A DNA stretch of 23,738 bases from Actinomycetota bacterium (GTDB lineage Bacteria > Actinomycetota > Thermoleophilia > UBA2241), in NCBI GenBank assembly GCA_003132645.1, contig PKYM01000332.1, positions 1 through 23,738 of the forward strand, given 5' to 3'. Under the pieces are notes generated by a model. It worked only from the letters and a program-made list of their open reading frames with translations. It made no database searches and was not told the origin of the DNA. Position 1 is the first letter of the stretch. Every line of letters starts with the position of its first letter. Below are positions 865-23,433 of the stretch, piece by piece. The translations under genes and the position numbers were made by a program.

Positions 865-884
865 CTAATTGACCGGCCGATTAG
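865..884. promoter_or_regulatory. Operator O1, 20-bp near-palindrome, probable TetR site
   Basis: CTAATTGACCGGCCGATTAG: the half-sites CTAATTGACC and (reverse complement) CTAATCGGCC agree at 8 of 10 positions. It starts 5 bases after the -10 of P1. A nearly identical 20-mer occurs at 19185-19204 in the same position relative to P2. Its AT-rich ends stand out in a very GC-rich background. Binding by the adjacent TetR protein is inferred. Confidence 0.7.
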
Positions 885-917
885 CGTTTGTCGGCCATCT
901 TACCAGACGAAAGCGCG

Positions 918-934
918 GCGCACGAGGGGTGCGC
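918..934 (+). other. Hairpin in the leader of the aldehyde oxidoreductase mRNA
   Basis: GCGCAC (918-923) and GTGCGC (929-934) form a 6-bp GC-rich stem with a GAGGG loop. It lies in a leader of about 200 bases between P1 and the start at 1070. Function is unknown. Molybdenum/tungsten cofactor riboswitches precede such genes in some bacteria, but I could not fit this leader to that motif. Confidence 0.3.
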
Positions 935-1069
935 GCCGATCATTCGTCGGTATCGGCGTCTGGGCCCTCCCGTCGCGAGCCTGCTCGGCTGTCTCCGGGC
1001 GGACGCGGTGGACGAATCGAGCTGACCCCGCCTATGGTTGCAGTGTCCCGTCGACAGCTGAGGAGAGCG

Positions 1070-2863
1070 ATGGACTTCTATGCCGGCCAGGTGCTCAGGC
1101 TCGATCTCACGCACCTGCAAGCCACGGTCGAGCCGCTCGATGCCGAGTGGGCGCGGCTCTACGTGGGCGGGAAGGGTCTGCTTCTGCGTTACCTTTTCGC
1201 GGAGCTGCCCCCGGGCTGCGAGGCGCTTGCTCCGGAGAACCCCCTGATCCTCGCCACCGGGCCCTTCGCAGGAACCCTCGCGGCCACCTGCTCGCGGCTC
1301 GCCGTGGGCTGCAAGAGCCCGGCTACCGGCATGCTCCTCGACTCCTACGTGGGCGGTTCCTTCGCCCCCGAGATCAAGTTCGCGGGCTACGACGTCGTCG
1401 TGATCGGCGGGAAAGCCTCCGAGCCGGTCCTCGTGCTGATCGAGGATGAGAAGGTGGAGTTCGTCCCGGCGGGGAGCCGCTACTGGGGCCTTGAGACCGC
1501 GTCGCTCGAGGCGCGCATCCGCGAGGACATGGGGCGCCGACACAAGGTGCTGTCCATCGGCCCTGCCGGCGAGCACCAGGTGCCCTACGCCTGTCTCTCT
1601 ACCGACCAGTACCACAAGGCCGGCCGCGGGGGTGCCGGAGCCGTCATGGGCAGCAAGAATCTCAAGGCGGTGGTGGTGCGCGGCACGGGCGCGGTCACGA
1701 TTCCCGGCATAGGCGCCTTCACCGCCGACATGCTGCGCCTGCAGCGCGACAGCGTGCTGACGCCCGACAACGCCTGGACGCATGAGGAGGGCACGCCGTA
1801 CCTGGTGGACGCCGTCAACGGCGCCGGCGCCCTGCCGACGCGGAACTGGCGGACCGGCACCTTCGAAGGCGCCGGCACGATCAACTCGGCGGCCCTGTTG
1901 CGCATTCGCACGAGGATCCGCGCCTGCACGCAGTGTCCCCTCGCCTGCCGCCAGGTGCACGCCTTCGATGGCTACGTCTGCGAGGGCCCCGAGTTCGAGA
2001 CCCTGGGTCTGTGCGGCGCCAACTGCGGCATCGGCGACCTCGCGGCGGTGGCCGCGTTCAACCGCGCTTGCGACGAGCTCGGCCTCGACACGATCTCCAC
2101 GGGAGCGGTCGTCGCCCTGGCCATGGACCTTTGCGAGCAGGGCGCCGCCGACTACGGCCTGGCTTTCGGCGATACGGCCGGCTTTCTCGCGGCGCCGCGC
2201 CTCATCGCGGCCCGCGAGGGGAGCGGCGCCGAGCTCGCGCTCGGCGCGCGCGCCCTGGCCGCCCTCAAGGGCCGGTCCGACCTTGCCCCCGAGGTCAAGG
2301 GGCTGGAGATGCCCGCCTACGACCCGCGAGGGACCTTCGGCATGGGCCTCGCCTACGCCACGTCTGATCGCGGAGCCTGCCACATGCGCGCCTTCACGGC
2401 GGGTGACGACATCCTGGGTGGAGCGGCCGCCGCCGATTCGCTTGTCGGCCGGGCCCGGCTCGTCGTCGACCAGCAGGACTTCAGCGCCGTCGCCTGGACG
2501 GGTGTGTGGTGTGCCAACATGGCCCTCGACACCGGCTTCCTCGGAGCCCACTTCAGGCACTTGTGGGGGCGCGAGACGTCACACGAGGAACTCATGACCA
2601 TCGGCGCCCGCATCTGGAATCTCGGCCGTCTCCTGAACTTGCGCGAGGGCCTCCGTCGCGACGACGACTGCCTCCCCCGGCGGATCCTCAGCGTGCCTCA
2701 TCCGGATGGTGTCGCGGCCGGCAAGGTCGTCGGCGCCGACGCTTTCCGCGAGGCTCTCGACGAGTACTACGCCCTGCGCGGATGGGATGCCGAAGGCGTG
2801 CCCACGCGCGAGACGCAGGCGAGGCTCTCGCTCACCGGACTGGGCCGCGACGACGCGGCGTGA
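1070..2863 (+). CDS. Tungsten-containing aldehyde ferredoxin oxidoreductase (AOR family)
   Basis: A 597-residue cytoplasmic enzyme that would interconvert aldehydes and carboxylic acids using a bis-pterin tungsten (or molybdenum) centre and one 4Fe-4S cluster. The N terminus (DFYAGQVLRLDLT) and YVGGKGLLLRYLF are typical of the AOR N-terminal domain. GRGGAGAVMGSKNLKAVVV near residue 185 is the pterin-contact motif. Cluster cysteines are C286, C289 and C293 (CTQCPLAC) with a fourth at C481 (VWCANMALD), close to positions 288/291/295/494 of the Pyrococcus enzyme. CDELGLDTIS and RGACHMRA are further family motifs. The start at 1070 is chosen because AGGAG lies at 1061-1065; an in-frame ATG at 1034 and TTG at 869 lack this, and 869 falls inside the operator. 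Substrate is not readable. It is probably co-transcribed with the next flavoprotein, a possible electron partner. Confidence 0.93.
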   Translation: MDFYAGQVLRLDLTHLQATVEPLDAEWARLYVGGKGLLLRYLFAELPPGCEALAPENPLILATGPFAGTLAATCSRLAVGCKSPATGMLLDSYVGGSFAPEIKFAGYDVVVIGGKASEPVLVLIEDEKVEFVPAGSRYWGLETASLEARIREDMGRRHKVLSIGPAGEHQVPYACLSTDQYHKAGRGGAGAVMGSKNLKAVVVRGTGAVTIPGIGAFTADMLRLQRDSVLTPDNAWTHEEGTPYLVDAVNGAGALPTRNWRTGTFEGAGTINSAALLRIRTRIRACTQCPLACRQVHAFDGYVCEGPEFETLGLCGANCGIGDLAAVAAFNRACDELGLDTISTGAVVALAMDLCEQGAADYGLAFGDTAGFLAAPRLIAAREGSGAELALGARALAALKGRSDLAPEVKGLEMPAYDPRGTFGMGLAYATSDRGACHMRAFTAGDDILGGAAAADSLVGRARLVVDQQDFSAVAWTGVWCANMALDTGFLGAHFRHLWGRETSHEELMTIGARIWNLGRLLNLREGLRRDDDCLPRRILSVPHPDGVAAGKVVGADAFREALDEYYALRGWDAEGVPTRETQARLSLTGLGRDDAA

Positions 2864-2936
2864 GCCGCGAACGCGCCGCGACCGGATGGAGCGCCCGTTC
2901 GCGGCGCCGCGCCGGAGCCGGGAGCGCGAGGCCGCT

Positions 2937-2954
2937 GTGACATACTGTCGTCAC
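2937..2954. promoter_or_regulatory. Small inverted repeat before the FAD oxidoreductase gene
   Basis: The arms GTGAC (2937-2941) and GTCAC (2950-2954) are separated by 8 bases, about 33 bases before the ATG at 2987. No convincing -35/-10 pair accompanies it, so it may be an internal operon site or chance. Confidence 0.25.
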
Positions 2955-2986
2955 GTGCAGACCTTTGAGGAGCCACGGGAGATCCG

Positions 2987-4345
2987 ATGACGCATATCGC
3001 CGAACAGGCGCGGACCACCCCGGTGCTGTGCGAGACGGAAGTGCTCGTCGTCGGTGGCGGGCCCGGCGGGCTTGCGGCGGCGATCGGTGCGGCGCGGGCC
3101 GGCGCGCAGACCACGCTGCTGGATCGCTACGGCTGTTTCGGGGGCGTCATCTCCCAGGTCGGGGTCGACAGCATCGCCTGGTACAGGCACGAGGGTACGG
3201 TCGACCTGGAGGGTATCGGCATCGAGTTCGAGCAGCGTGCCCGGGCCCTGGGCGGCACGCAGCCCGAGTCCCAGTCCTTGAGCGAAGCGCTCGACCCGGA
3301 GCTCTTCAAGGTCGTCGCCGATACCCTGCTGCAGGAAGCGCGCGTCGATCCGTTGCTGCACTGCCTGGCCACCGAGCCGATCGTCGACTCCGGCGTCATC
3401 AAGGGAGTGCTCACAGAGGGCAAGTCCGGTCGGCTGGCCATCCTGGCCCAACGGGTCATCGACGCGACCGGCGACGCAGACATCGCCTATCGTGCCGGGG
3501 CGCCGTGCCGCAAGACCCCGGTGGGCGAGATGATGGGTGTCACCGTCATGTTCTCGTGCTCGGGCGTGGACAAGAGGCGCTTCCTCGACTACGTCGCGGC
3601 CAGCAACCCCACCTACGGAGACTGGGGCAGGTGCTGGGCCATCGAGACGACGGGCAAGGAGGACGACCTCTTCAGCCCGTACCTCCAGGAGCCGTTCGAT
3701 CAGGCTCGCAGAGAGGGCATCATCCCCGAGGGCGTGGGCAGCATCGGCGGCACCTGGGGCCGTATCACCGACGCAGGCGAAGCGACCTCCCTCAACATGG
3801 TGGTGATGGCGGGCTACGATTGTACCGACGTGCGCGACATCACGCGGGCGGAGATCGAGGGCCGCCGCCAGGCCCTTCTGGCGATCGAGGCGCTGCGACG
3901 CTTTGCCCCAGGCTTCGAGAAGGCCCGACTGCGCTCCTTCGGCATGACTCTCGGCACACGCGACTCGCGCAAGATCGAAGGCCGGTACGAGCTCACTGCT
4001 CGCGACGTACGCAGCGAGGCGCGCTTCGGGGATTCGGTCGGCATCTTCCCCGAGTTCATCGACGGCTACGGCATCCTGATCCTGCCCACGACGGGGCGCT
4101 ACTTCCAGGTGCCCTACGGGATCCTCGTGCCGCAGGGGGTCGAGAACCTCCTGGTCGCGGGGCGTTGCGTGGCCGGCGACAGGGACTCGCACGCGGCCAC
4201 CCGCAACCAGATGTGCTGCGCCGTGACCGGCCAGGCCGCGGGCGTGGCCGCGGCCGTGTCGCTCGCGGACGGCCGGATCGCCGGCGACGTCGACATCCGG
4301 CACGTCCAGGCTGCACTCAGAGGGCAGGGCGTCCGGCTCGACTGA
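2987..4345 (+). CDS. FAD-dependent oxidoreductase (FAD_oxidored family)
   Basis: A 452-residue flavoprotein. The N-terminal dinucleotide-binding fold has GGGPGG at residues 23-28, followed by LDRYGCFGG at the end of the fold, as in the FAD_oxidored (PF12831) family related to HdrA and fumarate-reductase-type flavoproteins. VIDATGDADIAYRAGAPC and the C-terminal AGRCVAGDRDSHAATRNQ region are typical FAD-contact segments of this family, and LGTRDSRKIEGRY is another conserved stretch. No iron-sulfur motifs or membrane segments are visible. It begins 123 bases after the aldehyde oxidoreductase with a GGGAG-type ribosome site before ATG 2987. It could pass electrons from the aldehyde oxidoreductase or oxidise a substrate of its own; the sequence does not decide this. 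Confidence 0.85.
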   Translation: MTHIAEQARTTPVLCETEVLVVGGGPGGLAAAIGAARAGAQTTLLDRYGCFGGVISQVGVDSIAWYRHEGTVDLEGIGIEFEQRARALGGTQPESQSLSEALDPELFKVVADTLLQEARVDPLLHCLATEPIVDSGVIKGVLTEGKSGRLAILAQRVIDATGDADIAYRAGAPCRKTPVGEMMGVTVMFSCSGVDKRRFLDYVAASNPTYGDWGRCWAIETTGKEDDLFSPYLQEPFDQARREGIIPEGVGSIGGTWGRITDAGEATSLNMVVMAGYDCTDVRDITRAEIEGRRQALLAIEALRRFAPGFEKARLRSFGMTLGTRDSRKIEGRYELTARDVRSEARFGDSVGIFPEFIDGYGILILPTTGRYFQVPYGILVPQGVENLLVAGRCVAGDRDSHAATRNQMCCAVTGQAAGVAAAVSLADGRIAGDVDIRHVQAALRGQGVRLD

Positions 4346-4395
4346 GGCGAGCTCGACCACAGTGTTCTCGGCAGCGAAGACGGCAGCGCCGAGGG

Positions 4396-4420
4396 CCAAC
4401 GGGGGCGGCCCCCGGTTTGG
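4396..4420 (+). terminator. Probable transcription terminator hairpin
   Basis: A perfect 6-bp stem CGGGGG (4400-4405) / CCCCCG (4409-4414) with a CGG loop can be extended by CCAA (4396-4399) pairing with TTGG (4417-4420). It follows the FAD oxidoreductase stop by about 50 bases and precedes the transporter promoter. The following T tract is very short, so the call is moderate. Confidence 0.5.
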
Positions 4421-4527
4421 GAAAGCACCGAGTTGCACATCTGTTGGCGTATCCGCTGCCGGGCAGAGTATTTGGCTGCCATGGTATGACCGTGCAGAAC
4501 AATCATCCTCTTGTTGGCGGTCAACTG

Positions 4528-4547
4528 CTAACTAACCGGTCAATCTC
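4528..4547. promoter_or_regulatory. Operator-like site O3 before the transporter operon
   Basis: CTAACTAACCGGTCAATCTC matches the reverse complement of O2 (19185-19204) at 14 of 20 positions, including the uninterrupted core ACCGGTCAAT. Unlike O1 and O2 it sits just upstream of the likely -35 rather than after the -10, so it could be an activator-type or weaker site. A second GGTCAA lies at 4519-4524. Confidence 0.45.
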
Positions 4548-4549
4548 TA

Positions 4550-4578
4550 TTGCCAGACTGTTAGCGCGTGTGTATGGT
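4550..4578 (+). promoter_or_regulatory. Likely promoter of the ABC transporter operon
   Basis: TTGCCA (4550-4555) and TATGGT (4573-4578) are separated by 17 bases, about 80 bases before the start at 4661. The surrounding 4500-4600 stretch is clearly more AT-rich than the genes on either side. Together with the terminator at 4396-4420 and O3 at 4528-4547 it accounts for most of the 315-base gene-free gap 4346-4660. Confidence 0.5.
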
Positions 4579-4660
4579 GACTGGAATCGGGACGAAGCGT
4601 CGCCGTACAGCTCCGCCCCATTCTCATCGTAGGGCAAAGCTCTTATAGGGGAGTCGAACT

Positions 4661-6346
4661 ATGGCTGACGAGAAGTTCGCAAGAGAATATGGGCACCATC
4701 TGGTCGAGGAAGTCCTGAACGGCCATATGACGCGGCGCCAGTTGCTCGTCCGCGCCTCGGTCTTCGGCCTCTCGGCGACCGCCATCGCTCAGCTGCTCGC
4801 GGCCTGCGGTTCGTCGACCAGCTCGAGCTCGTCGCCCTCGGCGGCGGCCAGCGGCAGCGCCCTTCCGGCGGTCGTCACCGGCGGCACCATGAAGGCCGTC
4901 ATCCCGCCGCCGCTCAAGGCTCTCGATCCGGTCACCATCTACGACCAGGGCGGCATCGTCCTCGTCTACCAGATCGCCGAGTACCTGATCGACCTCACCA
5001 ACCAGAACGCGCTGAAGCCCAAGCTCGCGGTGAGCTGGGCGCCCAACGCGAAGGGCGACGTCTGGACCTTCAAACTTCGCCAGGGCGTCACGTTCAACGA
5101 TGGGAGCCCCTTCGAGGCGGCCGACGTCGTCGCCAGCATCGAGCGCGTCATCAACCCCAAGAGCGGCTCGGGCGCTCTCGCTGCCCTCGCCGGCATCCTC
5201 TCGCCCGGCGGCACGAAGGCGATCGACACGCACACGGTCCAGTTCAACCTCGACAAGCCGTTCGCCGACTTCCCGTACCTGGTGAGCGCGTCGTCGTACA
5301 ACACTGCCATCCTGCCCCGCAACTACGCCGGCAACTTCCAGAAGAAGGCCGTGGGCACAGGCCCGTGGATGCTCAAGAGCTTTGTCACCAACCAGCACGC
5401 CACGCTGGTCAAGAATCCGACCTACTGGGGCAAGGACACCCAGGGACGTCAGCTTCCCTACCTCGATCAGCTCGAATTCGCTCTGGTCACCGACACCTCG
5501 GCGGCCAACCTTCAGCTCCAGTCGGGCGCCGTCGACGTCCAGCCGCAGACGGTCTTCCAGGGTGGGGCGTCAGTGCTCAGCGATGCCAGTCTCAGGGTCG
5601 ACGTCTACCCGTCGACCGGCATCCGTGAACTCGCCTTCAACGTCAACAAGACTCCCTGGCAGGACAAGAGGGTCCGCCAGGCAGTCGCCTACTCCCTGGA
5701 CCGCAAGGCCATCAACCAGGCGCTGTACGGCGGCCGCAGCAACCTCGGCTACGACACCTTCTGGGAGCCGACGGTCTTCCCGGGCAGCCCGACTCCGCCG
5801 GCACGGGCCCAGGACTACACCAAGGCCAAGCAGCTGCTTTCAGACGCCGGTCATGCCAGCGGCGTCGACGTCACGCTGACCGTCGCCAACTACCTCGAGA
5901 ACCCGGCGTTCGCGCAGCTCATCCAGGCCCAGTGCAAGCCGGCCGGCATCAACGTCAAGATCAACGAGATCAGCTACAACGCGATCTACGCGGGCACCAA
6001 CACCACCACGCCATGGCTCAATGCGCCCTCGGTCATCGTCGAATGGGGCAGCCGGCCCACGCCCGGCGTGTACGCGCAAGCCATGCTCCTGCCGACCAGC
6101 GCCTGGAGCTCCTCGCACTGGAACGACAAGGATTTCGTCACCACCTTCAACCAGTACGAGTCGACCACCGACGAGGCGACCCGCACGACGCTGGCCAGCA
6201 AGCTGTCGTCGATCCAGCAGGATGAGACGCCGATCGTCGTTGCCTTCTACATCTCCCAGCTGCGCACGCAGAAGAAGAACGTGTACAACATTCAGGGCCC
6301 AGGCTCGTTCTACTTCGACGTCAGCCAGGCCTACATGACGAAGTGA
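4661..6346 (+). CDS. ABC transporter substrate-binding lipoprotein, family 5 (peptide/opine/nickel type)
   Basis: A 561-residue extracytoplasmic binding protein. The leader has a twin-arginine-like TRRQLL (R25, R26), a hydrophobic stretch, and a lipobox LLAAC with Cys49 as the likely lipidation site. A Ser/Ala-rich linker (about 50-70) follows. The mature part has SBP_bac_5 features: LKPKLAVSWAPNAKGDVWTFKLRQGVTFNDGSPFEAADVVASIERV and later AVAYSLDRKAINQALYGGR. A good GGGGAG ribosome site precedes ATG 4661. It heads the transporter operon 4661-10401. Family 5 proteins bind peptides, opines, nickel or sugars, so the ligand cannot be assigned; a link to the operator regulating mtbB makes an N-methylated compound a reasonable guess only. 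Confidence 0.92.
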   Translation: MADEKFAREYGHHLVEEVLNGHMTRRQLLVRASVFGLSATAIAQLLAACGSSTSSSSSPSAAASGSALPAVVTGGTMKAVIPPPLKALDPVTIYDQGGIVLVYQIAEYLIDLTNQNALKPKLAVSWAPNAKGDVWTFKLRQGVTFNDGSPFEAADVVASIERVINPKSGSGALAALAGILSPGGTKAIDTHTVQFNLDKPFADFPYLVSASSYNTAILPRNYAGNFQKKAVGTGPWMLKSFVTNQHATLVKNPTYWGKDTQGRQLPYLDQLEFALVTDTSAANLQLQSGAVDVQPQTVFQGGASVLSDASLRVDVYPSTGIRELAFNVNKTPWQDKRVRQAVAYSLDRKAINQALYGGRSNLGYDTFWEPTVFPGSPTPPARAQDYTKAKQLLSDAGHASGVDVTLTVANYLENPAFAQLIQAQCKPAGINVKINEISYNAIYAGTNTTTPWLNAPSVIVEWGSRPTPGVYAQAMLLPTSAWSSSHWNDKDFVTTFNQYESTTDEATRTTLASKLSSIQQDETPIVVAFYISQLRTQKKNVYNIQGPGSFYFDVSQAYMTK

Positions 6347-6387
6347 CGCGAGTGGCGTCGAACAGAGACTGACGTAGGGAGCCCGGG

Positions 6388-7335
6388 ATGGCGCGCCTCA
6401 TCGGTCGCCGGCTGCTTCTCATGGTGCCGACGCTGATCCTGGTGTCGATCCTCGTGTTCGCCTTGGCCGAAGTGCTGCCAGGCAACCTGGGGCGCTCCAT
6501 CCTGGGGCCCTACGCCACGCAACAGCAAGTCGATATCCTCAACCACCATCTTGGCGCCGACAAGCCGTTGTATGAACGGTACGCCGTGTGGGCCGGCCAT
6601 TTCGTCACCGGCCACTGGGGAGCGTCTCTGCAGCTCGGCACGCCCGTCTTCTCGACCGTCATGCGCGCGCTCGGCAACTCGCTCCTGCTCGCCGGCTTCG
6701 CGCTGGTGATCATCGTGCCCACCTCCATTCTGGTGGGCGTGTATGCCGGCCTCCGACGAGACAGCCTGCTCGACCGGGCGATCACGATCTCCACGCTGTC
6801 AATGACCGTCATCCCCGAGTTCGTGAGCGGCGTCATCCTCATCGTCGTTTTCGCCGTGACGCTCCATTGGCTCCCGGTCTCCGCCATGCCGCCTCAGGGC
6901 GCGCCCTTCGTGGACCGGTTCTACTACCTCATCTTGCCGGCCATCCCGCTGATGCTCCTCGAGCTGGGCTACATCGCGCGCATGGCTCGGGTGGGCACGG
7001 TGCAGGTGCTGGCGATGCCCTACATCCGCACGGCCGTGCTCAAGGGACTGCCACGCCATCGGGTCATCTTCGGCCACGTGCTGCGCAACGCCCTGGTGCC
7101 GACGGTCACCGTGATCGGCAGCCAGGTGGGCTGGCTCATCGGTGGCCTGGTGGTCGTCGAGTTCCTGTTCGTCTACCCCGGCATCGGCAACATGATGATC
7201 AATGCGGCGCAGTTCCACGACGTGCCACTGCTCGAAGCGTGCGTGCTCGTCGTGGCGGTGCTGTACATGCTTTCCAACCTCATCGCCGACATCGTGGTGG
7301 CTCTGCTGAACCCGCGCATCCGGATGGGAGGCTGA
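6388..7335 (+). CDS. ABC transporter permease, DppB/OppB type
   Basis: A 315-residue integral membrane protein with about six hydrophobic segments. It starts with the typical ARLIGRRLLLMVPTLILVSILVFAL first membrane helix, followed by a periplasmic region (LGADKPLYERYAVWAGHFVTGHWGASL) characteristic of DppB/OppB. The EAA-like cytoplasmic loop that contacts the ATPase lies around PRHRVIFGHVLRNALVPTVTVIG. It follows the binding protein by 41 bases and is immediately followed by the partner permease. It forms the translocation channel with that partner; transport substrate is unknown. Confidence 0.93.
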   Translation: MARLIGRRLLLMVPTLILVSILVFALAEVLPGNLGRSILGPYATQQQVDILNHHLGADKPLYERYAVWAGHFVTGHWGASLQLGTPVFSTVMRALGNSLLLAGFALVIIVPTSILVGVYAGLRRDSLLDRAITISTLSMTVIPEFVSGVILIVVFAVTLHWLPVSAMPPQGAPFVDRFYYLILPAIPLMLLELGYIARMARVGTVQVLAMPYIRTAVLKGLPRHRVIFGHVLRNALVPTVTVIGSQVGWLIGGLVVVEFLFVYPGIGNMMINAAQFHDVPLLEACVLVVAVLYMLSNLIADIVVALLNPRIRMGG

Positions 7336-7336
7336 G

Positions 7337-8236
7337 GTGGCGCCCGCCGGCGTCGTCGACGACAGCAGGACCCAGGAGATGCAGGCCGACGTCGCCGCCG
7401 CGCTCGAGCAGCGGCGGCAGCGTCGCTACCTCGTAAGGGCGCTCCTGCGCAGCCCGACCTTCGTGATCGGCGTTCTCATCGTGCTCTTCTGGGTCTTCAT
7501 GGGCATCTTCTCGACGGCCTTCACCCAGTCTCCCCTGGCACAGCACCCCTTCGCCATTCTGCAGTCGCCCAGTGCGGCTCACTGGTTCGGTACCGACGAT
7601 CTCGGCCGCGACGTGCTCGCGCGTACCATGGCCGGAGCTCGCACCGTGCTCATCATCGCGCCGCTCGCGACCCTTCTCGCCCTCCTGTGGGGCGGCATCA
7701 TCGGCCTCATCGCGGGCTTCTACCGGGGCATCACCGACGACATCATCATGCGCTTGGTAGACGTGCTGCTCGCGCTGCCCGTCATCATCACCTCGATCCT
7801 CATCCTGTCGCTGTTCGGCAAGTCGTTGGCCATCGTCATCGTCGTCATCGGGGCACTGTTCACACCGGTGGTCTCGCGCACCATCCGTTCGGCGGTCATC
7901 GGCGAGCGCGAGCGCGAATACGTCATGGCGGCGCGCCTGCGCGGCGAGCGCTCGGCGTTCGTCATGGCCCGCGAGATCCTGCCCAACATCACCCAGCCGA
8001 TCATCGTCGAGGGCACCGTGCGTCTCGGCTACGCCGTGTTCACTGCGGCGACGCTCTCCTTCCTGGGCTTCGGCCTCGGACCACCGTCGCCCGACTGGGG
8101 CCTCACCATCGCCACCGAGAGGGTCGACCTGCAGAGCGCCCCCTGGACCGTGCTGTTTCCCGCCTTTGCGCTGGCGTCCCTGGTGGTGGGCGTGAACCTC
8201 ATCACCGACGGTCTGTCATCGGTCTTCTCGAAGTGA
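7337..8236 (+). CDS. ABC transporter permease, DppC/OppC type
   Basis: A 299-residue partner permease. It has an N-terminal cytoplasmic stretch (to about residue 38), a first membrane helix around PTFVIGVLIVLFWVFMGIF, the family signature HWFGTDDLGRDVLARTMAGAR, and an EAA-type loop around AREILPNITQPIIVEGTVRLGYAVF. The start is GTG at 7337, one base after the previous gene's TGA (7333-7335), indicating tight translational coupling. Its stop at 8234-8236 overlaps the GTG start of the ATPase gene (GTGA). It is the second channel subunit of the importer. Confidence 0.92.
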   Translation: MAPAGVVDDSRTQEMQADVAAALEQRRQRRYLVRALLRSPTFVIGVLIVLFWVFMGIFSTAFTQSPLAQHPFAILQSPSAAHWFGTDDLGRDVLARTMAGARTVLIIAPLATLLALLWGGIIGLIAGFYRGITDDIIMRLVDVLLALPVIITSILILSLFGKSLAIVIVVIGALFTPVVSRTIRSAVIGEREREYVMAARLRGERSAFVMAREILPNITQPIIVEGTVRLGYAVFTAATLSFLGFGLGPPSPDWGLTIATERVDLQSAPWTVLFPAFALASLVVGVNLITDGLSSVFSK

Positions 8237-10401
8237 GTGCCGTGGACTCACAGGCGAACGCGACAGATGCCGCGCCGGCGGCGGCGCTCGACGTGCGCGA
8301 CCTCGAAGTGACGTTCCATCGTCGCGGTCGCGACCTGCCGGTGCTCAAGGGCGTCACGTTGCACATTGAGCCTGGCGAGGCGTACGGCCTGGTCGGCGAG
8401 TCGGGTTGCGGCAAGACCACGCTGGCGATGGCGGCCCTGCGCTACCTGGCAGGCAACGGCACGGTCGACGCCGGACAGGTGCTGGTCGAGGGCCGCGACG
8501 TCAGCACGCTCAGCGAAGAGGCGCTGCGCAAGTGGCGCGGCGAAGCCGTCGCCATGGTCTACCAGGACCCCGCCACGGCCCTCAGCCCCGCCATGCGCAT
8601 CGGTGACCAGGTCGCCGAGGTGTTCCGTTATCACGAGGGCCTCAAGAAGGCCGAGGCGCTCGAGCGCGCCCGCGAGAGCCTGCGTCGTGTGGCGCTCCCC
8701 GATCCCGACGCCACTCTGCGTCGCTACCCCTTCGAGCTGTCGGGGGGCCAGCAGCAACGTGTCGTCATTGCCATGGCGCTCGCCGTCAACCCACACCTGC
8801 TCGTCCTGGATGAACCCACCACCGGCCTCGACGCCACGGTAGAGGCGGAGATCCTCGATCTCATCGAGGAGCTGCGCGGGCGCATCCACGCGGCCATCCT
8901 CCTGATCACGCACAACCTCGGCCTCGTCGCCCATCTCTGCGAACGCGTCGGTGTGCTGTACGCGGGACGCATCGTCGAAGAGGGCCCTGCACGCGAGCTC
9001 TTCACCGACCCGCGGCACCCCTACACCATGGGCCTGCTGCGCTGCGCGCCGCGCTTCGGCATGAACAAGACCGACGCTGCGCTGCAGACCATCCCCGGCA
9101 CGCTGCCGGCCCTCGGGGAGCCGCTGGCGGGCTGTGTCTATTCAGCGCGCTGCCCCATGGCGAAGCCCGTGTGCACGCGCCGCGAGCCCGACCTCTACGC
9201 GTGGCCCAGCGACGCCGGTGTCAAGGGAGCCGCCGAGGCCGAAGCCATGCCGCCGGATCCGGTGGCCTACTCACCGCACCACGCCAGCCCCGTCGGCGAG
9301 GCAGCGCGGCACGCACGCTGCTACTTCTCGGCGCAGGTGCCGGAGATGCCGCAGATGGCGCCGGTGGTGGGCGCCAGCCTCGAAGCGCGGGGCGCGAGCA
9401 GTGGCGACGTGCTCGAGATCAAAGCCGTCGAGCGCACGTTCAAGGACGGCCGCAAGCGGCTCACGGCCGTGCATGACGTTTCTCTCAACCTGAAGCACGG
9501 CGAGACCTTCGGACTCGTCGGTGAGTCGGGCAGCGGCAAGACGACCCTGGCCAAGTGCGTCACCGGCCTGATCGCCGCCGACTCCGGCACCGTCACCTTC
9601 GAGGGCAAGCTGATGCGCTCCACAGCCGGTCGCCGCTCGCAGGATGCGCTGCGGGCCATCCAGATGGTCTTCCAGAACCCCGACTCGACGCTGAACCCGG
9701 CCTGGAGCACGCGTGCCATCCTCACGCGCTCGGTGCGCAAGCTCGCCGGGTCGCGAAGCGGCTCGGTGCGCGCCAAGGTCGACAAGCTCTCCGCCGACGT
9801 GCGCGTTGAGCCCCGGTTCCTGCTGCAAAAGCCGGCCGACCTCTCCGGTGGCCAGAAGCAGCGCATCGCCATCGCGCGCGCCTTCGCCGGCGATCCCAGA
9901 CTGGTGGTCTGTGACGAGCCGGCCTCGGCCCTCGACGTGTCGGTGCAAGCCAGCATCCTCAACCTTCTCGTCGAGCTGCAGACCAGCGAGTCGGTCTCGT
10001 ACATCTTCATCTCCCACGATCTCGCCGTGGTGCGCTACATCTCCGACCGTATCGGTGTGATGTACCTGGCGGAGCTCATCGAGGTCGGTTCCGCCGAAGA
10101 GGTCTTCAACCCGCCTCACCACCCCTACACCGAGGCGCTGCTGTCGTCGATCCCGAAGCTCGACTTCGACCGCAGACTGCAGCGCATTCCGCTGCGCGGC
10201 GCCATGCCCAGCCTGAGCGAGCCGCCCACGGGCTGCCGCTTCCACACCCGCTGTCACCGCTTCCTCGGCGACCTCTGCGTTCAGCAGGAGCCGCCGATCC
10301 AGGAGGCGGTGACGGGGCACACCTACAAGTGCCACATCCCGCCCGACGAGTTGCTCGCGGCCCAACTCGCCGACCGCCCGGCCAGTCCGGTCGAGGCGTA
10401 G
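8233..10401 (+). CDS. Fused DppD-DppF-type ABC transporter ATP-binding protein
   Basis: A 722-residue protein with two complete ATPase modules in one chain, doing the job of the usual DppD/DppF pair. Module 1: Walker A GESGCGKTT at 55-63, signature LSGGQQQR at 169, Walker B LLVLDEPTTGLD, then the oligopeptide-type C-terminal extension with RHPYTMGLLR and cysteines in CVYSARCPMAKPVC. Module 2: Walker A GESGSGKTT at 430-438, signature LSGGQKQR at 537, Walker B VVCDEPASALD, then HHPYTEALLSSIP and GCRFHTRCHRFLGDLC. The GTG start at 8233 overlaps the upstream stop (GTGA). It ends with TAG, relevant because this organism apparently decodes UAG as an amino acid; the frame after the TAG stays open for over 500 codons, antisense to etfA/etfB. 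Confidence 0.92.
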   Translation: MSAVDSQANATDAAPAAALDVRDLEVTFHRRGRDLPVLKGVTLHIEPGEAYGLVGESGCGKTTLAMAALRYLAGNGTVDAGQVLVEGRDVSTLSEEALRKWRGEAVAMVYQDPATALSPAMRIGDQVAEVFRYHEGLKKAEALERARESLRRVALPDPDATLRRYPFELSGGQQQRVVIAMALAVNPHLLVLDEPTTGLDATVEAEILDLIEELRGRIHAAILLITHNLGLVAHLCERVGVLYAGRIVEEGPARELFTDPRHPYTMGLLRCAPRFGMNKTDAALQTIPGTLPALGEPLAGCVYSARCPMAKPVCTRREPDLYAWPSDAGVKGAAEAEAMPPDPVAYSPHHASPVGEAARHARCYFSAQVPEMPQMAPVVGASLEARGASSGDVLEIKAVERTFKDGRKRLTAVHDVSLNLKHGETFGLVGESGSGKTTLAKCVTGLIAADSGTVTFEGKLMRSTAGRRSQDALRAIQMVFQNPDSTLNPAWSTRAILTRSVRKLAGSRSGSVRAKVDKLSADVRVEPRFLLQKPADLSGGQKQRIAIARAFAGDPRLVVCDEPASALDVSVQASILNLLVELQTSESVSYIFISHDLAVVRYISDRIGVMYLAELIEVGSAEEVFNPPHHPYTEALLSSIPKLDFDRRLQRIPLRGAMPSLSEPPTGCRFHTRCHRFLGDLCVQQEPPIQEAVTGHTYKCHIPPDELLAAQLADRPASPVEA

Positions 10402-17494: not shown

Positions 17495-18946
17495 CTACTC
17501 ACGGCGCGCCCGGCGCAGGATGTCGTCGCCGACGTGGCAGATCGCCGCCAGCTCGTCGAGCTGAGCGCCGCTGAGGTAGGGCTGCCTGGCGGCGTGTGCC
17601 GCCAGGACGAGGTCGACCTGCTCGCAGGCCGTGTCGTACTCGGTGGTGCCCTCCTCGAGCCACTTCTCGTAGGAGAGGCGGTTCGAGACCGAGGGCAGGT
17701 AGTGCTCGCCGGCACGGATGCGACGTGAGGTGTCCTTGAGGCCGAGGAAGCCGCCGCCCGGGCCCACCGCGGCGATGGCTTCGCCGGCCAGCGTGGCGGC
17801 GGAGACCTCGACCGGCGCGTTCAGGCGGCGGACCATGGCCGCGATCTCGTTGTCGACCACCGATTGCGGCAGGGACATCGTGTTGTGCGAGTCGATGAGG
17901 CCCCAGCCGGTGACGATGTCGGGGTTGGCGCCGCACACCGTGGCCGCCTTCAGCGCCTTCTCGTAGCCGTTCTGAAGCCCGGCGTGCTTGGCGTCGGTGG
18001 AGAGTCCGGGGATCAACGTGGGCACGCCGAGGTAGTGCCCGACCTCGGCGGCCATCGCGCCCATCAGGGCGCTTTCCAGGCAGCCCAGCGAGAACGTGGT
18101 GCGCAGCATGTCGAGCACGCCCGAGCCGAAACAGAAGACGAGCCTCGCCCCGGGCGCCGCGATCTGCAGGGCGGTGGCGACGCCCAGGAACTCGGCGAGT
18201 CCCTGCGCGACCGTGCCCGCCGGCGTCACCGGCGAAGTGGCGCCGGCGATGGTCATCGTATAGACCTCGATGGGCACGCCGTGAGCGGCCAGCGGAAGGT
18301 GGATGTCGAGGACGGTGCCGTCGACCTGGAGCGGCGACGCCGCGGTGACGACGGTGGAGACGCGGGGGCGGCGACGAGACCGCTCGAGGTCGCCGGACAG
18401 GACCTCGCAGAGGCGCAGCACCGCGGCGCTGTCACTGGGACAGTCGACGAACGTGACGTGCTTGGAGGTCTCCGTGAGCAGCGTGAAGTACTCGGTGAGC
18501 TCGCGTTCGTCGAGGGGCACGTCGGAGGCGCTGACCTGGGTCCACATGAGGTCGAGCTCCGGCATCTCGTCGAGCAGGGCGGTGGCCTCGCGCACGTCCA
18601 GCAGAGTGCTGGCTCGACGCAGGCCCGTGCGGTGGTCGAGCGTCTTGGCCACGCAGCCGCTCGGCGCGAAGTGGAACGGCTGGTCGGCGCCCAGCACGAC
18701 ATCGTCGGCCTCGGTGAGCCCAGCCATGACGAACGAGCGCGGGCACTGGGCGATCGTCCACTCGACGAGCTCTCGCGGCAGGCGCGCGATGCCGGTGGCG
18801 TAGTCGACCGAGGCGCCGCGCGCGGCCAGCAGAAGGAGCGCCCGGGAGCCGGTGAAGCGCATCCCCACGGTCGCGAGCAGCTCCAGGGCCTGGTCGGCGA
18901 TCAGGCCCTTCTCCGCCTCGCTGAGCCACGTCGTGTTCGCCCTCAT
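17495..18946 (-). CDS. MttB-superfamily methyltransferase lacking pyrrolysine
   Basis: A 483-residue member of the trimethylamine methyltransferase superfamily (COG5598), a TIM-barrel transferring a methyl group from a quaternary amine to a corrinoid protein. TATVGMRFTG-type N terminus, SPLQVDGTVLDIHLPLAAHGVPIEVYTMTIAGATSPVTPAGTVAQGLAEFL-type barrel segments and the C-terminal EEGTTEYDTACEQVDLVL region are typical. Aligning VPTLIPGLSTDAKHAGLQNGYEKA with VAGA-Pyl-GDAKVADAQSGHEKT of the mttB gene puts Ser316 where pyrrolysine would be. Non-Pyl members are known to demethylate glycine betaine, proline betaine, carnitine or gamma-butyrobetaine. The start ATG 18946 fits the family N terminus; the ribosome site is weak. 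It ends in TAG (17495-17497). The substrate is undetermined. Confidence 0.88.
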   Translation of the reverse strand: MRANTTWLSEAEKGLIADQALELLATVGMRFTGSRALLLLAARGASVDYATGIARLPRELVEWTIAQCPRSFVMAGLTEADDVVLGADQPFHFAPSGCVAKTLDHRTGLRRASTLLDVREATALLDEMPELDLMWTQVSASDVPLDERELTEYFTLLTETSKHVTFVDCPSDSAAVLRLCEVLSGDLERSRRRPRVSTVVTAASPLQVDGTVLDIHLPLAAHGVPIEVYTMTIAGATSPVTPAGTVAQGLAEFLGVATALQIAAPGARLVFCFGSGVLDMLRTTFSLGCLESALMGAMAAEVGHYLGVPTLIPGLSTDAKHAGLQNGYEKALKAATVCGANPDIVTGWGLIDSHNTMSLPQSVVDNEIAAMVRRLNAPVEVSAATLAGEAIAAVGPGGGFLGLKDTSRRIRAGEHYLPSVSNRLSYEKWLEEGTTEYDTACEQVDLVLAAHAARQPYLSGAQLDELAAICHVGDDILRRARRE

Positions 18947-19149
18947 GGCAGCACACTTTCTGGCCTGGACCGCCCGTGCCATGTCGCAGCGAGGCGATCG
19001 AACCGCACTCTCGCCCGTCGCCGACCGCGACCGTCGCGAAAGGATCATGTCAGGTTACACGACCGGCTCCTTCGACATCCTGATCGAAGCCCACCTGCCC
19101 GACAACGAGAGCCTCCACGAGAGAATGTCGGCAAGGAGCCGCTCGGCGC

Positions 19150-19242: not shown

Positions 19243-20649
19243 GTGGTGAACGAGGGCCGACTTCCGACCCGCATGGGCGACGGCACTTTCGCGTGGCTGA
19301 CGCGCAGCGAGATCAGAGCCGATCTCGAAAGCGGCTCCGAAGCGGCGGCCAAGAGAGCCAAGCTGCCGCCGCTCACCGCCGACGAGATCGACCACCTGCT
19401 CGACATCTATGCCTCGCCGGCGCGCTTCACGGGGGTCGATCTGGGCGACGAGGTCGTGCTGTCCTGCGACGGCACCGGGATGAAGACCCACGCCACCCGC
19501 ATCCAGGATCTGCAGACCTACGAACAGTGGATGGGCGCCGACCTGCTCGAGCTGTGCGTGGGCGACTACTCGCTCAAGGTCGTGCGCACGATCCTCGCCT
19601 ACGAGGCGCAGTACATGCACGACGCTCAGCTCGCCACGGTGGCGCCCGTGCAGTATGGGGTTATGCCCAACCTGGGCCTCTACTCCAAGCCCGACGGTCC
19701 CTGCGACAACTGGAGCGAGCTGCTCCCCCAGGGCAAGATCGATGAGGCCCGCGCCTCGCAGGAAGAGGCCATCGAGATGGCCGTCCTCGATATGGTCCAC
19801 CTCGCCGAGTCGCAGTTCGAGGCCGGCGCCGACGCCATCGACTGGGACACCACCGCAGCCTCCGGCGACCCGGAGTTCCTGGCCGCTCTGAGAGCCACCG
19901 AGATCATCCACGCCAGGTACCCTGATCTCGGCATCCAGCTGGGCATGGCCGGTGAGTTCGTCCTGGGGATGCACGGCAAGCTTACGTTCAAGGGTACGAG
20001 GCTCGCCGGCCTGTGGCCGCGCGAGCAGCTCCTGCTCGCCCAGCAGGCCGGCGCCACCATGTTCGGCCCGGTCGTCAACGTGAACACGGGCAAGAGCTGC
20101 GCCTGGAACGTGGCCCGCGCCATCTGCCTCGTGAAGCCGTGCACGGAGGTCGCCGAGATCCCCGTGCACATGAACGCCGGCATGGGTGTCGGCGCGGTGC
20201 CGATGTTCGTGCATCCGCCGGGCGACGCCGTCTGCCGGGCGGCCAAGGCGTTCGTCGACCTGCTACGCCTCGATGGCTTGTAGGTAGGCTCGGGCGACCC
20301 TCACGGGATGCACAACGCTCACGCGCAGGCAGCGGGCATGGGCGGTATGCGAGCAGCCGGAGACCTGGTGGCTCGAATGCAGATGACCCGCAGCATGCGC
20401 CTAAAGGAAGCCAAGGAGTACGTCGCCGGCAAGCTCGGCGTGACGCCGTTCGACCTGAGCGACCCCGTCGTGATGACGGATGCGCGCAACGAGTTCGGCT
20501 TCGGCCGCATCCACAGCTACGCCATCAGTCAGCCGGCACAGGCCAACATGATCGAGGCGAAGTTCAACATCGCCCGCGTACTCGATATTCCCGTGAACTG
20601 CGTGGAGCGCTTCAAGGAGCGCACTGCCATGACCGGAGGTGAGCTGTGA
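19243..20649 (+). CDS. mtbB: Dimethylamine:corrinoid methyltransferase with in-frame UAG (pyrrolysine)
   Basis: A 468-residue enzyme if the TAG at 20281-20283 is read as pyrrolysine (residue 347). It would demethylate dimethylamine and pass the methyl group to a corrinoid protein (MtbC). The family is recognised from MGDGTFAWLTRSEI near the start, APVQYGVMPNLGLYSKPDGP, DWDTTAASGDPEFL, GMAGEFVLGMHG, TRLAGLWPREQ and NAGMGVGAVPM. The frame after the TAG reads VGSGDPHGM and then GMGGMRAAGDLVARM with KEAKEYVAGKL, which is the genuine C-terminal part of MtbB; the methanogen protein has Pyl followed by VGVGDP at the same place and a nearly identical length (467). The start GTG 19243 follows GGAGG at 19232-19236. 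A true TGA stop overlaps the mttB start as GTGA. Uncorrected, this gene is called as two ORFs. Confidence 0.95.
20281..20283 (+). other. UAG codon predicted to encode pyrrolysine in mtbB
   Basis: TAG lies between Leu-Asp-Gly-Leu and Val-Gly-Ser-Gly-Asp-Pro, in one continuous frame, at the position of the active-site pyrrolysine of characterised MtbB. Conserved MtbB sequence continues for 122 codons after it, which rules out a real end of the gene. Confidence 0.95.
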
Positions 20650-22115
20650 TACGAAATCCGCGGGCCGGCTCGCGCAAGAGCGGCGGCTTTCGACTCGAGG
20701 TGTTCACCGACGACGAGCTGCGCGAGATCCACCTCGCGACGCTCGAAGTGCTCTCTCGAACCGGTGTCTTCGTCGAAGACGCGGAGGCCCTGCAGATCTT
20801 CGAGGACGGTGGCGCCGACGTCGACCGCGAGCGTCGCGTGGTGTGCCTGCCGGCGCACGTGGTCGAGGGCGCCATCCGCTCCGCGCCTGCCAAGGTCGTG
20901 CTCTGCGGCCGCACGCCCGATCACGACGTCGTGCTCGAAGACGGCCGCGTGGGCTTCACCAACTTCGGCGAGGGTATCCAGGTGGTCGACCCCTACACGG
21001 GCGAGCTGCACGAGTCGCGCAAGGCCGACGTGGCCGACTGCACGCGGTTGATCGACGCCCTGCCCGAGATCGACGTCGTCGAACGCCCGCTCGGCGCCCA
21101 CGACGCGCCCGTCGACACGGCCGCGCTGCACAACGCCGAGGCGATCTTCTCGAACACGACCAAACACGCCACCATCGGTCCGCTCACGGGGTTCTGCGCG
21201 CGCAAGATGATCGACATGGCGGCCGCCATCGTCGGCGGTCACGACAAGCTGCGCAAGCGGCCGCTCCTCTCGTTTATCACCTGCCCGGTGAGCCCGCTCA
21301 AGCTGGTCGCCGACGCCTGCCACATCATCATCGAGGGCGCGCGCGCCGGTATCCCCGTGAACGTCCTGTCGATGGCGATGGCGGGGGCTTCCGCGCCGGT
21401 CAGCCTCGCCGGCACCCTCGTGACGCACAACGCCGAGGTCCTGGCGGGGATCACGCTCGCCCAGCTCACTGTCAGCGGCGCGCCGGTGATCTACGGCAGC
21501 TCCACGACCGCCATGGACCTGCGCTTCGCGAGCGCCTCGGTGGGCAGCCCCGAGTGCGGCATGATCGGGGCGGGCGTCGCCTGCCTCGCGCGCTTCTACC
21601 TGCTGCCGAGCTGGGTCGCCGGTGCGTAGGGCGACGCCAAAGTGGCGGACGCCCAATCCGGTCACGAAAAGACCATCACCAGCCTCTTGCCGGCGTTGGC
21701 AGGGGCCAACCTGATCTACGGGCTGGGGATGTTGGAGTCGGGCGTCACCATCGATTACGCACAGCTCGTCATGGACGCGGAGTTCGCGCGCATGGTCAAG
21801 TTCTGCCTGCCCGGCATCCCGGTGACCGACCAGACGCTTTCCGTGGACGTGATCGCCGAGGTGGGGCCGTTCAGCGACTTTCTCTCGCACGACGACACCT
21901 ATCGGGGCATGCGCGAACAGTCGCGATCGCAGCTGATCGACCGGCGGGTCCGGGAGGACTGGGCCGCCGCCGGCTCGACCACCGTCTACGAGCGCGCCCT
22001 CGCCGAGGCGCGCCGCATCCTCGAGACGCACGAGCCGCAGCCGCTGCCCGACGCGGTGGCGGCGGAGCTCAAGGCCATCATCCGCGCGGCCGAAGAGGAG
22101 CTCGGGGCCGGGTGA
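20646..22115 (+). CDS. mttB: Trimethylamine:corrinoid methyltransferase with in-frame UAG (pyrrolysine)
   Basis: A 489-residue enzyme when the TAG at 21627-21629 is read as pyrrolysine (residue 328; about 334 in Methanosarcina). It transfers a methyl from trimethylamine to the corrinoid protein MttC. The family is shown by FTDDELREIHLATLEVLSRTGVFV, VGFTNFGEGIQVVDPYTGEL, ATIGPLTGFCARKMIDM, FITCPVSPLKLVADA, ASAPVSLAGTLVTHNAEVLAG and GSPECGMIGAG. Up to the TAG the frame reads LLPSWVAGA, after it GDAKVADAQSGHEKT and ALAGANLIYGLGMLESGVTIDYAQLV, the normal MttB C-terminal part. The GTG start overlaps the mtbB stop (GTGA), so the two are one transcription unit. A hairpin follows the TAG directly. 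Confidence 0.95.
21627..21629 (+). other. UAG codon predicted to encode pyrrolysine in mttB
   Basis: TAG sits in the frame Val-Ala-Gly-Ala-UAG-Gly-Asp-Ala-Lys, the Pyl site of MttB proteins. 161 conserved sense codons follow before a TGA. Confidence 0.95.
21630..21653 (+). other. Hairpin directly after the mttB UAG
   Basis: GGCG (21630-21633) pairs with CGCC (21650-21653), and inside it CGCC (21635-21638) pairs with GGCG (21644-21647) around an AAAGT loop; only A and GA are unpaired between the stems. It begins at the base after the UAG, where a pyrrolysine-insertion (PYLIS-like) element would be expected. GC-rich coding DNA makes chance hairpins common, so function is uncertain. Confidence 0.4.
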
Positions 22116-22164: not shown

Positions 22165-23433
22165 ATGAGTACCCGTGCCGAGATGCGCGAGCGACTGCTC
22201 ATCCAGGCCGCCGACGTCGCGGCCGTCAACGCGTTCCTGGCGAGCCCCGACAACCCCCTCGTCAACTCACTGTTCGAGGTCGTCGACAAGTACGGCGGCG
22301 TCGAGCAGATCAACCGCGCGGCCGACGAAGCCGGCCGCCTCGAGACCCGGCTCGAGCGCCTGCGCGAGGAACACTCGCCCTACCTGGCCGACGTCGAGTG
22401 GCTCGCGGCGCAGCGCGACGCCGGTGCCTTCGTCACGCTGCCCGAGTATCGGCGCACCGTGCTCGGCGCCGCCGCCGACACTACGGTCGCAGACGAAGAG
22501 AGCGCCGTCACCCTCGAGATCTCCGCGCTGCAGTTCTTCCCCTGGCTGATCGCCGAAGCCCGCCAGGCGATCGAGAAGCGCGAGCTCATGCCCGGCCGCT
22601 TCATCCGCGAGCGCAACATGGCCGAGCAGTCGAAGCCCGGCGGCGACCTGCTCGCGGTCTGCGCCGCCATGCAGGTCATCGGGGCGACCCACGTCGAGAG
22701 CCTCGACACGCGCGGCATCGACGGCGCCAACCTCATGGTCGGCCTCGAGACCATCACCGGCTACTTCGGCGGCATCGGCGAGCCCAACGAGCACGTCCTC
22801 AGATACGTCGACGAGTACCTCCACTACCTCACCGAGTACGGCGTCCGCGAGGTGCTCAACTTCAACATCGGCACGATCCTCGCGGCTTTCGTGCTGCGCA
22901 AGCTCGGGGTGCGCAACGAGTTCAAGATCTCGGTCTTCATGGGCGTCGACAACCCCTGGTCGGTCCTCTGGCTGCTGATCGGGGCGCGCCTGGTGGGCGG
23001 CTCCGGAGGCGCCACCAGCCTGAGCGGCATCAACTTCTCGAACTCAGCCGACTCCGACACCCTGCGCGCCGCTTCGGCGGCGCGCGAGGCCCTGGGCCTG
23101 CGCGAGACGGTGCGCTTCGAACACCACGTCACCGAAGCCTACAAGTCGATCGTGCGTCAGCCCTACGAGCGTCGCGCCGAGGTCGTCGAGATCGCCGCCG
23201 AGGTGCCCAACATCTCCGCCGAGCACGAAGGCGGCGACCCCGCGGTCGAGGCCGGCCGCAAGCATCGCAGCGACATCCTCGACTACTTCATCTCGCAGAA
23301 CGTGATCGAAGCGGCCGGCGCCATGGAGGCCCTGGAGCGCAACTACTTGGATAAGCACGCCGCCTTGAACCACACCGCCGCCGACCTCATCCGGGCCGGC
23401 ATCGGCGTCAAGGCGGCGAGCCTGCTGCACTAA
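22165..23433 (+). CDS. Conserved-looking protein of unknown function downstream of mttB
   Basis: A 422-residue soluble protein I do not recognise. No signal peptide, clear membrane helix, cysteine cluster, Walker motif or B12-binding DxHxxG motif is visible. An N-terminal helical region (1-80) with charged heptads (AADEAGRLETRLERLREEHS) is followed by an alpha/beta-looking middle: GATHVESLDTRGIDGANLMVGLETITGYFGG, VLNFNIGTILAAFVLRKLG, FKISVFMGVDNPWSVLWLLIGARLVGGSGGATSL, SGINFSNSADSDTL. The glycine-rich loops and alternating pattern would suit a TIM-barrel-like enzyme. Position 49 bases after mttB on the same strand suggests a role in methylamine use, possibly a further methyl transfer or substrate-handling step, but that is context only. 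It is the only gene here ending in TAA. Confidence 0.75.
   Translation: MSTRAEMRERLLIQAADVAAVNAFLASPDNPLVNSLFEVVDKYGGVEQINRAADEAGRLETRLERLREEHSPYLADVEWLAAQRDAGAFVTLPEYRRTVLGAAADTTVADEESAVTLEISALQFFPWLIAEARQAIEKRELMPGRFIRERNMAEQSKPGGDLLAVCAAMQVIGATHVESLDTRGIDGANLMVGLETITGYFGGIGEPNEHVLRYVDEYLHYLTEYGVREVLNFNIGTILAAFVLRKLGVRNEFKISVFMGVDNPWSVLWLLIGARLVGGSGGATSLSGINFSNSADSDTLRAASAAREALGLRETVRFEHHVTEAYKSIVRQPYERRAEVVEIAAEVPNISAEHEGGDPAVEAGRKHRSDILDYFISQNVIEAAGAMEALERNYLDKHAALNHTAADLIRAGIGVKAASLLH

Follow-up and report, generated by a model that had tools for sequence, protein, structure and literature searches.

A putative pyrrolysine UAG followed by a covarying RNA hairpin in the dimethylamine methyltransferase gene of an uncultured Actinomycetota bacterium that also uses UAG as a stop

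Introduction

What keeps the other UAG stops functional in a cell that contains a charged amber tRNA is an open question. It is raised in the relevant passages of PMC8211752, which nevertheless state that a cis element is not required, and the sections on this subject in PMC8211752, PMC9499178 and PMC2933860 hold such an element unnecessary in archaea or E. coli. In the current study, we address this question through a locus in the genome of an uncultured, GC-rich Actinomycetota (3.24 Mb, 370 contigs, 87.95% complete). The window, i.e., the whole stretch of DNA analysed, is 23,738 nucleotides long (contig C310, bases 1-23738) and carries a dimethylamine methyltransferase gene, mtbB, with an in-frame TAG. 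The original prediction, made from the letters of the window, was that the sequences on both sides of this TAG form one gene whose UAG encodes pyrrolysine (Pyl). What is added here is a second Pyl gene, mttB, the use of UAG as a common true stop in the same genome, and RNA hairpins in the messages of both genes.

The reading frame of mtbB

The following features of mtbB are considered in this section:
19243..20649, plus strand: mtbB, dimethylamine:corrinoid methyltransferase, predicted to be read through a single UAG, 468 aa (TAG-open translation, TIGR02368)
20278..20280, plus strand: Leu codon TTG preceding the UAG, synonymously constrained (codon counts over 90 mtbB)
20281..20283, plus strand: putative Pyl codon, in-frame TAG, residue 347 (TAG in 44/44 full-length mtbB and in 99/99 matches crossing the site)

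Translated with TAG open, the interval 19243-20649 contains the TAG at codon 347 as its sole internal stop and encodes 468 residues; GTG at 19243 is the predicted start and is preceded by a purine-rich GGGAGGGAC stretch. The joined protein scored 426.4 bits against TIGR02368 (NCBIfam equivalog cut-off 369.1), with a match spanning residues 9-460 of 468 and model positions 7-465 of 466. The expected agreement of the joined translation with the characterised family was thus borne out across the UAG, at 468 aa for a model of 466 positions, and the single in-frame UAG occupies the Pyl position of the PF09505/TIGR02368 family.

A set of 44 full-length mtbB genes (49 segments found), built by opening TAG only, has TAG in one aligned column in all 44. 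We also searched 60 genomes (our own and 59 related ones) in six frames, with every stop read through and counted. This gave 110 mtbB matches in 17 of the 60 genomes; the 99 that cross the site each contain exactly one stop, which is always TAG, and the remaining 11 are partial, stop-free and do not extend to the Pyl position. A chance TAG is ruled out, because the codon stands in the same column in 44/44 genes and 99/99 matches contain one TAG. Together with the full-length TIGR02368 match, these counts confirm that mtbB is a single gene across an in-frame UAG.

Over all pairs of the 44 full-length genes, mismatch at the three codon positions was 0.33/0.26/0.45 upstream of the TAG and 0.32/0.24/0.47 downstream of it. 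The predicted conservation of MtbB sequence on both sides, in the same frame, is upheld by this equality, which shows that selection beyond the TAG is in frame and as strong as upstream. From these comparisons we infer Pyl at residue 347 of the MtbB protein. Two mtbB genes of the set (L084 and L086) contain another TAG close to the C-terminus; it may be their own stop, and a Pyl reading would pass through it. A PDB sequence search with MtbB gave no match, and no mtbB match was found in plasmid sequences.

Pyrrolysine machinery and its distribution

ARAGORN detected a tRNA-Pyl with a CUA anticodon on contig C71 (5547-5619, minus strand). The genes for PylB, PylC and PylD lie in a row beside it, on the same strand and running towards the tRNA gene. 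PylSn is encoded on the same contig and PylSc on contig C169, where its gene hits N bases close to its end in the present assembly; PylB, PylC, PylD, PylSn and PylSc each score above their own NCBIfam cut-off. A search with a tRNA-Pyl consensus pattern had found no pylT in this genome, a result overturned by the ARAGORN detection. The original prediction had let the Pyl reading stand or fall with the pyl genes. As pylT, pylB, pylC, pylD, pylSn and pylSc are all found in this 88%-complete genome, Pyl is supported as the reading of the UAG.

The PylRS is split, with pylSn and pylSc as separate genes that lie on different contigs here and on the same fetched stretch in 8 of 15 relative loci. This split is the bacterial arrangement: the part of PMC11764691 dealing with it describes 81 bacterial PylRS, all of the split PylSn/PylSc type, two of them from Actinobacteria.

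Among the 60 genomes, MtbB is found in all 15 of our genome's family and in two of another family in the class (17/60), and PylSn in 14 of the 15 and in the same two others (16/60). The family's genomes each hold 3 to 11 mtbB matches, and our own holds eight, one of which is a fragment. In the 15 stretches fetched around PylSn, tRNA-Pyl was detected by ARAGORN in 13, and PylB, PylC and PylD occur together in ten. Twelve loci bear names: ten, at 77-88% identity, are from metagenome genomes named Thermoleophilia, Actinomycetes, Actinobacteria or Actinomycetota, and two, at 50% identity, are from Syntrophomonadaceae. In the class of a Syntrophomonadaceae genome, mtbB occurs in 4 of 20 genomes, with six matches that all contain one TAG (6/6).

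The prediction that Pyl is uncommon in a GC-rich, non-methanogen genome needs qualifying, since within this family mtbB occurs in 15/15 and pylSn in 14/15 of the genomes searched. Throughout this uncultured Actinomycetota family, Pyl use would thus be an established trait, and standard gene calling would break each of its MtbB and MttB in two. A literature search on pyrrolysine in Actinobacteria and Actinomycetota found no paper on this lineage among the matches listed.

UAG as an ordinary stop

The use of UAG elsewhere in the genome was assessed on mechanical ORF picks from 419 kb, a sample enriched for methyltransferase contigs. With Pyl genes included, TAG terminates 106 of 317 picked genes (33.4%), compared with an intergenic TAG share of 25.9%; once Pyl contexts are removed, it terminates 81 of 271 higher-scoring picks (about 30%). 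There is no depletion of UAG stops relative to intergenic TAG in this genome. Five of ten TAG-ended genes scanned exceed the cut-off of a specific named family (gyrB, ychF, ligD, folC and homocitrate synthase). The TAG-ended gyrB is matched to the final model position, and behind its TAG the frame stays open for 837 codons, into an apparent gyrA recognised by eye. No enrichment of back-up stops was found behind TAG-ended genes within 10 codons, where TAA or TGA follows in 11% of TAG-ended and 19% of TGA-ended genes. The gene preceding mtbB in the window ends in the same way:
17495..19048, minus strand: non-pyrrolysine MttB-family gene with an ordinary terminal TAG (open in-frame run of 369 codons behind the TAG)

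Taken together, the sequence data indicate that UAG is also the normal terminator of many genes in this genome.

Two other genomes of the family have TAG stop shares below the intergenic ones (22.7% vs 25.3% and 13.9% vs 22.0%). In seven genomes of the class in which MtbB and PylSn were not detected, the TAG share ranges from 25.0 to 54.3% and is in each case above the genome's own intergenic share. The family may therefore avoid TAG stops mildly, yet it keeps TAG as a regular stop, and such mild avoidance would leave less need for a mark on Pyl UAGs. Two genomes of one genus in another family (G017 and G027), one with and one without detected MtbB and PylSn, have similar TAG stop shares (42.9% in the Pyl user, 47.2% in the other) and form a natural pair for the gain or loss of the Pyl code.

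A coding-like frame follows the TAG in 25 of 100 TAG-ended genes of our genome, nine of which are mtbB or mttB. For the rest, the counts are 16/91 after TAG compared with 10/167 after TGA and 7/34 after TAA. We considered these 16 non-methyltransferase frames as Pyl genes and rejected them: by eye, several are the next gene with its own start, as in gyrB followed by gyrA, and none continues a methyltransferase. A further Pyl gene among the 16 is possible.

A hairpin downstream of the mtbB UAG

The coding sequence behind the UAG contains a predicted RNA structure:
20347..20378, plus strand: coding RNA hairpin, 14 pairs in the family structure, 12/14 of which form in the window (66 to 97 nt after the T of the TAG)
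20359..20366, plus strand: hairpin apex GGAGACCU, two closing pairs and an AGAC loop, with the invariant GGA codon at 20359-20361 (GGA in 90/90)

At 159 conserved columns of 41 of the 44 mtbB, near-identical sequences having been dropped, the choice among synonymous codons was set against the codon usage of those genes. The highest-ranking column was the Gly at +26, encoded by GGA in 41/41 (KL 3.86), and the codon before the TAG was TTG or TTA in 36 of 37 Leu (KL 3.74), while the next-best column reached only 0.96. An enlarged set of 90 distinct TAG-bearing genes was obtained from 93 segments, the TAG-less pieces ending before the TAG site, and includes six genes from the Syntrophomonadaceae class. 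In this set, all 90 genes encode the hairpin Gly by GGA, which accounts for 5.5% of their remaining Gly codons. Immediately upstream of the UAG stands TTG or TTA in 77 genes, TAC in 11 and CTG in two; TTG makes up 4.4% of Leu codons elsewhere in the mtbB genes, and TTG or TTA precedes the terminal TAG in 1 of 81 TAG-terminated genes of our own genome.

The hairpin spans codons +22 to +32, with the GGA at its apex, and the apex reads GGAGAYCU in 78 of 79 unique sequences. Corrected mutual information was calculated from these 79 sequences (of 80 gap-free genes among the 90). The wobble pairs +24/+29, +23/+30 and +25/+28 rank 1, 2 and 3 of 741, followed by +22/+31 and +18/+34, which are nested around them. 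When the analysis is extended to every codon position over a wider span (27,993 pairs), the three leading pairs rank 1, 4 and 7, and the intervening pairs do not fit pairing.

Three of five pairing measures exceed every shuffle. Over the 79 sequences, 88.4% of hairpin cells are paired (shuffles, 79.8%; slid structures, no more than 41.5%), and 88 cells are changed on both sides, compared with 32.5 in shuffles. The covariation score is 0.239; for shuffles it is 0.089 (sd 0.009), and slid structures do not exceed 0.098. Neither the number of pairs with change on both sides (5, reached by 351/500 shuffles) nor that of further pair types (20, reached by 77/500) was above shuffles. The weak pairs of the helix are columns 19-38, paired in 37/76 rows, and 15-42, paired in 53/76. 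RNAalifold, with the structure not supplied, recovers the core of the same hairpin. For the window itself, the 100 nt after the mtbB UAG have no folding advantage over shuffles (z -0.35), and their predicted structure of minimum energy is a different one.

On a FastTree tree built from protein columns outside the hairpin, four wobble pairs have 9, 8, 6 and 5 compensated double changes (28 in total) and rank 1-4 of 741 pairs, for which the median is 0 and the 95th percentile 2. The GGA wobble has zero changes on the tree, compared with a mean of 16.8 per wobble site. A covariance model of the hairpin finds the seven mtbB of our own genome at E up to 5.6e-8, all of them in its training set. In 419 kb of the 3.24 Mb, no other match falls below E 1, and two lie at E 1.8 and 2.8. 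By covariation and codon choice, selection acting on the RNA rather than on the protein maintains the hairpin.

The downstream mttB gene and its surroundings

A second gene of this kind follows mtbB:
20646..22115, plus strand: mttB, trimethylamine:corrinoid methyltransferase, predicted to be read through one UAG (TIGR02369, 731.8 bits, cut-off 525)
21627..21629, plus strand: in-frame TAG of mttB (column common to 19/19 TAG-bearing mttB)
21695..21710, plus strand: mttB hairpin GUUGGC-AGGG-GCCAAC (68 to 83 nt after the mttB UAG)

Its GTG start overlaps the mtbB stop as GTGA (20646-20649), as read from the sequence. Among 19 distinct Pyl mttB, codon +24 is GCA in 14/14 Ala (three have Gly and two are cut off), +22 is GCG in 18/18 and +23 is TTG in 13/18, and the codons +22 to +24 build GUUGGC-AGGN-GCCAAC. 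The stem has 6/6 pairs in 12 of 17 complete genes, in one of them (L093) through a change on both sides, 5/6 in one gene and 3/6 in four, three of which are from the Syntrophomonadaceae class. The 100-nt stretch of the window folds better than all 200 shuffles (z -3.59), with the hairpin in the minimum-energy fold. In a control of non-Pyl family members (51 rows, 28 from our own genome and 23 from other loci), the 30 Ala are encoded by GCC (23), GCG (7) and GCA (0); after removal of contained duplicates (44 rows, 26 Ala), the counts are 19, 7 and 0. A UUR codon precedes the UAG in only 3 of 19 mttB. The mttB hairpin likewise appears to be kept by selection on RNA and not on protein, with covariation support weaker than for mtbB.

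Altogether, our genome contains 28 MttB-family matches, some of them fragments, two of which contain a Pyl TAG within the gene. The size of the non-Pyl set suggests that methylated amines are broadly used. An in-frame TGA in one MttB match (C265), considered as a candidate, is merely its terminal stop. Two MtmB-family genes of this genome, C25:6309-7655 (L068) and C42:4614-5975 (L069), have no in-frame stop, and in our reading of the alignment the former has Tyr at the Pyl202 position of the solved MtmB1. PMC13044021 (2026) ties a non-Pyl MtmB homologue to the use of tetramethylammonium and choline. Just after mttB, a 422-aa frame (22165-23433) has no Pfam match up to E 1, and its product is possibly a partner protein. 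Genes for an aldehyde ferredoxin oxidoreductase, an FAD oxidoreductase and a dipeptide-type ABC transporter lie consecutively at 869-10401 of the window.

Proposed decoding and alternatives

Based on these results, we consider it very probable that the mtbB UAG is decoded as Pyl by the genome's own Pyl system to give full-length MtbB, the hairpins most likely aiding the decoding. In the proposed scheme, pylBCD, pylT and the split pylSn/pylSc would place Pyl at the mtbB UAG and yield a corrinoid-dependent dimethylamine methyltransferase, and the GTGA overlap would carry ribosomes from mtbB on to mttB. The hairpins, together with the UUR codon before the mtbB UAG, would raise Pyl insertion or hinder release there. 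A ribosome halted at the UAG would not cover the mtbB hairpin, 66 nt downstream, so simple blocking would be less likely than the action of a bound factor or an influence on the following ribosome. Taken by itself, a role of the hairpins in UAG decoding is somewhat favoured by the evidence, and by inference the hairpin might decide which UAGs become pyrrolysine. A more general proposal, for which we judge the chances to be even, is that bacteria using UAG both as a stop and for Pyl mark their sense UAGs by a cis-acting hairpin about 70 nt downstream with a purine-rich apex. This apex (GGAGAYCU in mtbB, AGGN in mttB) would be read by some factor or by the ribosome.

Two other readings of the UAG appear very improbable. 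If it terminated translation, the downstream half would be a relic or a separate protein; the frequency of UAG as a true stop in this genome is in line with that idea, while the in-frame purifying selection downstream, equal to that upstream, the full pyl set and the identity of the stop (TAG and never TAA or TGA in 99/99) speak against it. It is just as hard to credit that another suppressor or a near-cognate tRNA reads the UAG as an ordinary amino acid. Pyl itself is invisible in DNA, and nothing specific points to such a tRNA, whereas tRNA-Pyl and both PylRS parts are present and pylSn occurs in 14 of the 15 family genomes searched.

A reading that deserves more weight, though we lean against it, accepts Pyl at the UAG and leaves the choice between stop and sense to competition of Pyl-tRNA with the release factor and to a methylamine-induced Pyl system. 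The hairpins would then serve otherwise, for example in message stability, in ribosome pausing at a Shine-Dalgarno-like GGAG or in the binding of a regulator. In its favour, GGAG and AGG are sequences that we take to be Shine-Dalgarno-like, and the hairpin presumably lies well past the region covered by a ribosome stopped at the UAG. Competition is also the view put forward in the pertinent passages of the reviews PMC8211752, PMC9499178 and PMC2933860. On the other hand, mtbB and mttB belong to different families and have hairpins at nearly the same distance from the UAG (66-97 and 68-83 nt). Moreover, the GCA marker codon of mttB is missing from the non-Pyl family members, those of our own genome included, and TAG-ended genes have no excess of back-up stops (11%, as against 19% after TGA). 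This genome makes the question of UAG stops directly testable: about 30% of its picked genes terminate at UAG with no enrichment of back-up stops, and two Pyl genes of different families have hairpins under selection.

Comparison with known systems

MtbB as a Pyl gene is of an already known kind, and the novelty is the covarying hairpin with an invariant loop in a bacterium that stops at UAG. The gene resembles the methanogen and bacterial Pyl MtbB (TIGR02368/PF09505) in its whole-length match, the UAG at the Pyl position and the presence of pylT/S/B/C/D. It differs from the known cases in its host, an uncultured GC-rich Actinomycetota with eight mtbB matches in the genome and UAG as a common true stop, and from methanogens in its split PylSn/PylSc.

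The mtbB hairpin qualifies as a PYLIS by its conserved, covarying structure downstream of the Pyl UAG, and the mttB hairpin does so less strongly. The Rfam families PYLIS_2 (RF02509, mtbB) and PYLIS_3 (RF02510, mttB) match directly from the two TAGs (74.1 and 74.4 bits; gathering thresholds 36 and 38), and our mtbB hairpin is in register with the second helix of RF02509. According to the relevant text of PMC2933860, the first observation of a PYLIS-like element was made in mtmB and mttB, with nothing similar in mtbB; covariance in mtmB was limited, and PYLIS replacement lowered the full-length product and did not abolish it. The corresponding part of PMC3639795 (2013; 18 mtbB and 18 mttB) reports that mtbB has a canonical structure and that no significant one was obtained in mttB. 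Unlike the PYLIS of these parts of PMC3639795 and PMC2933860, the mtbB hairpin described here is invariant at its apex, covaries when the tree is taken into account and lies at a fixed distance, and, in contrast to the same part of PMC3639795, mttB has its own hairpin with a marker codon absent from non-Pyl relatives. In the open-licence literature on PYLIS and pyrrolysine, we found, among the matches listed and in the portions they display, no report that the mtbB or mttB genes of bacteria have this invariant loop or a hairpin that covaries. The hairpin is restricted to the UAG-read genes in our data: the mtbB model finds only the seven training-set mtbB in 419 kb, and the mttB GCA occurs in 0/26 non-Pyl Ala.

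If true, the proposed marking of sense UAGs would give the 22nd amino acid a rule resembling that of SECIS, contrary to the prevailing view that none is needed. SECIS hairpins direct selenocysteine to UGA, and the bacterial SECIS lies directly behind its UGA. In both cases, an mRNA hairpin would single out a stop codon for decoding as an additional amino acid; unlike the bacterial SECIS, the mtbB hairpin begins 66 nt after the UAG.
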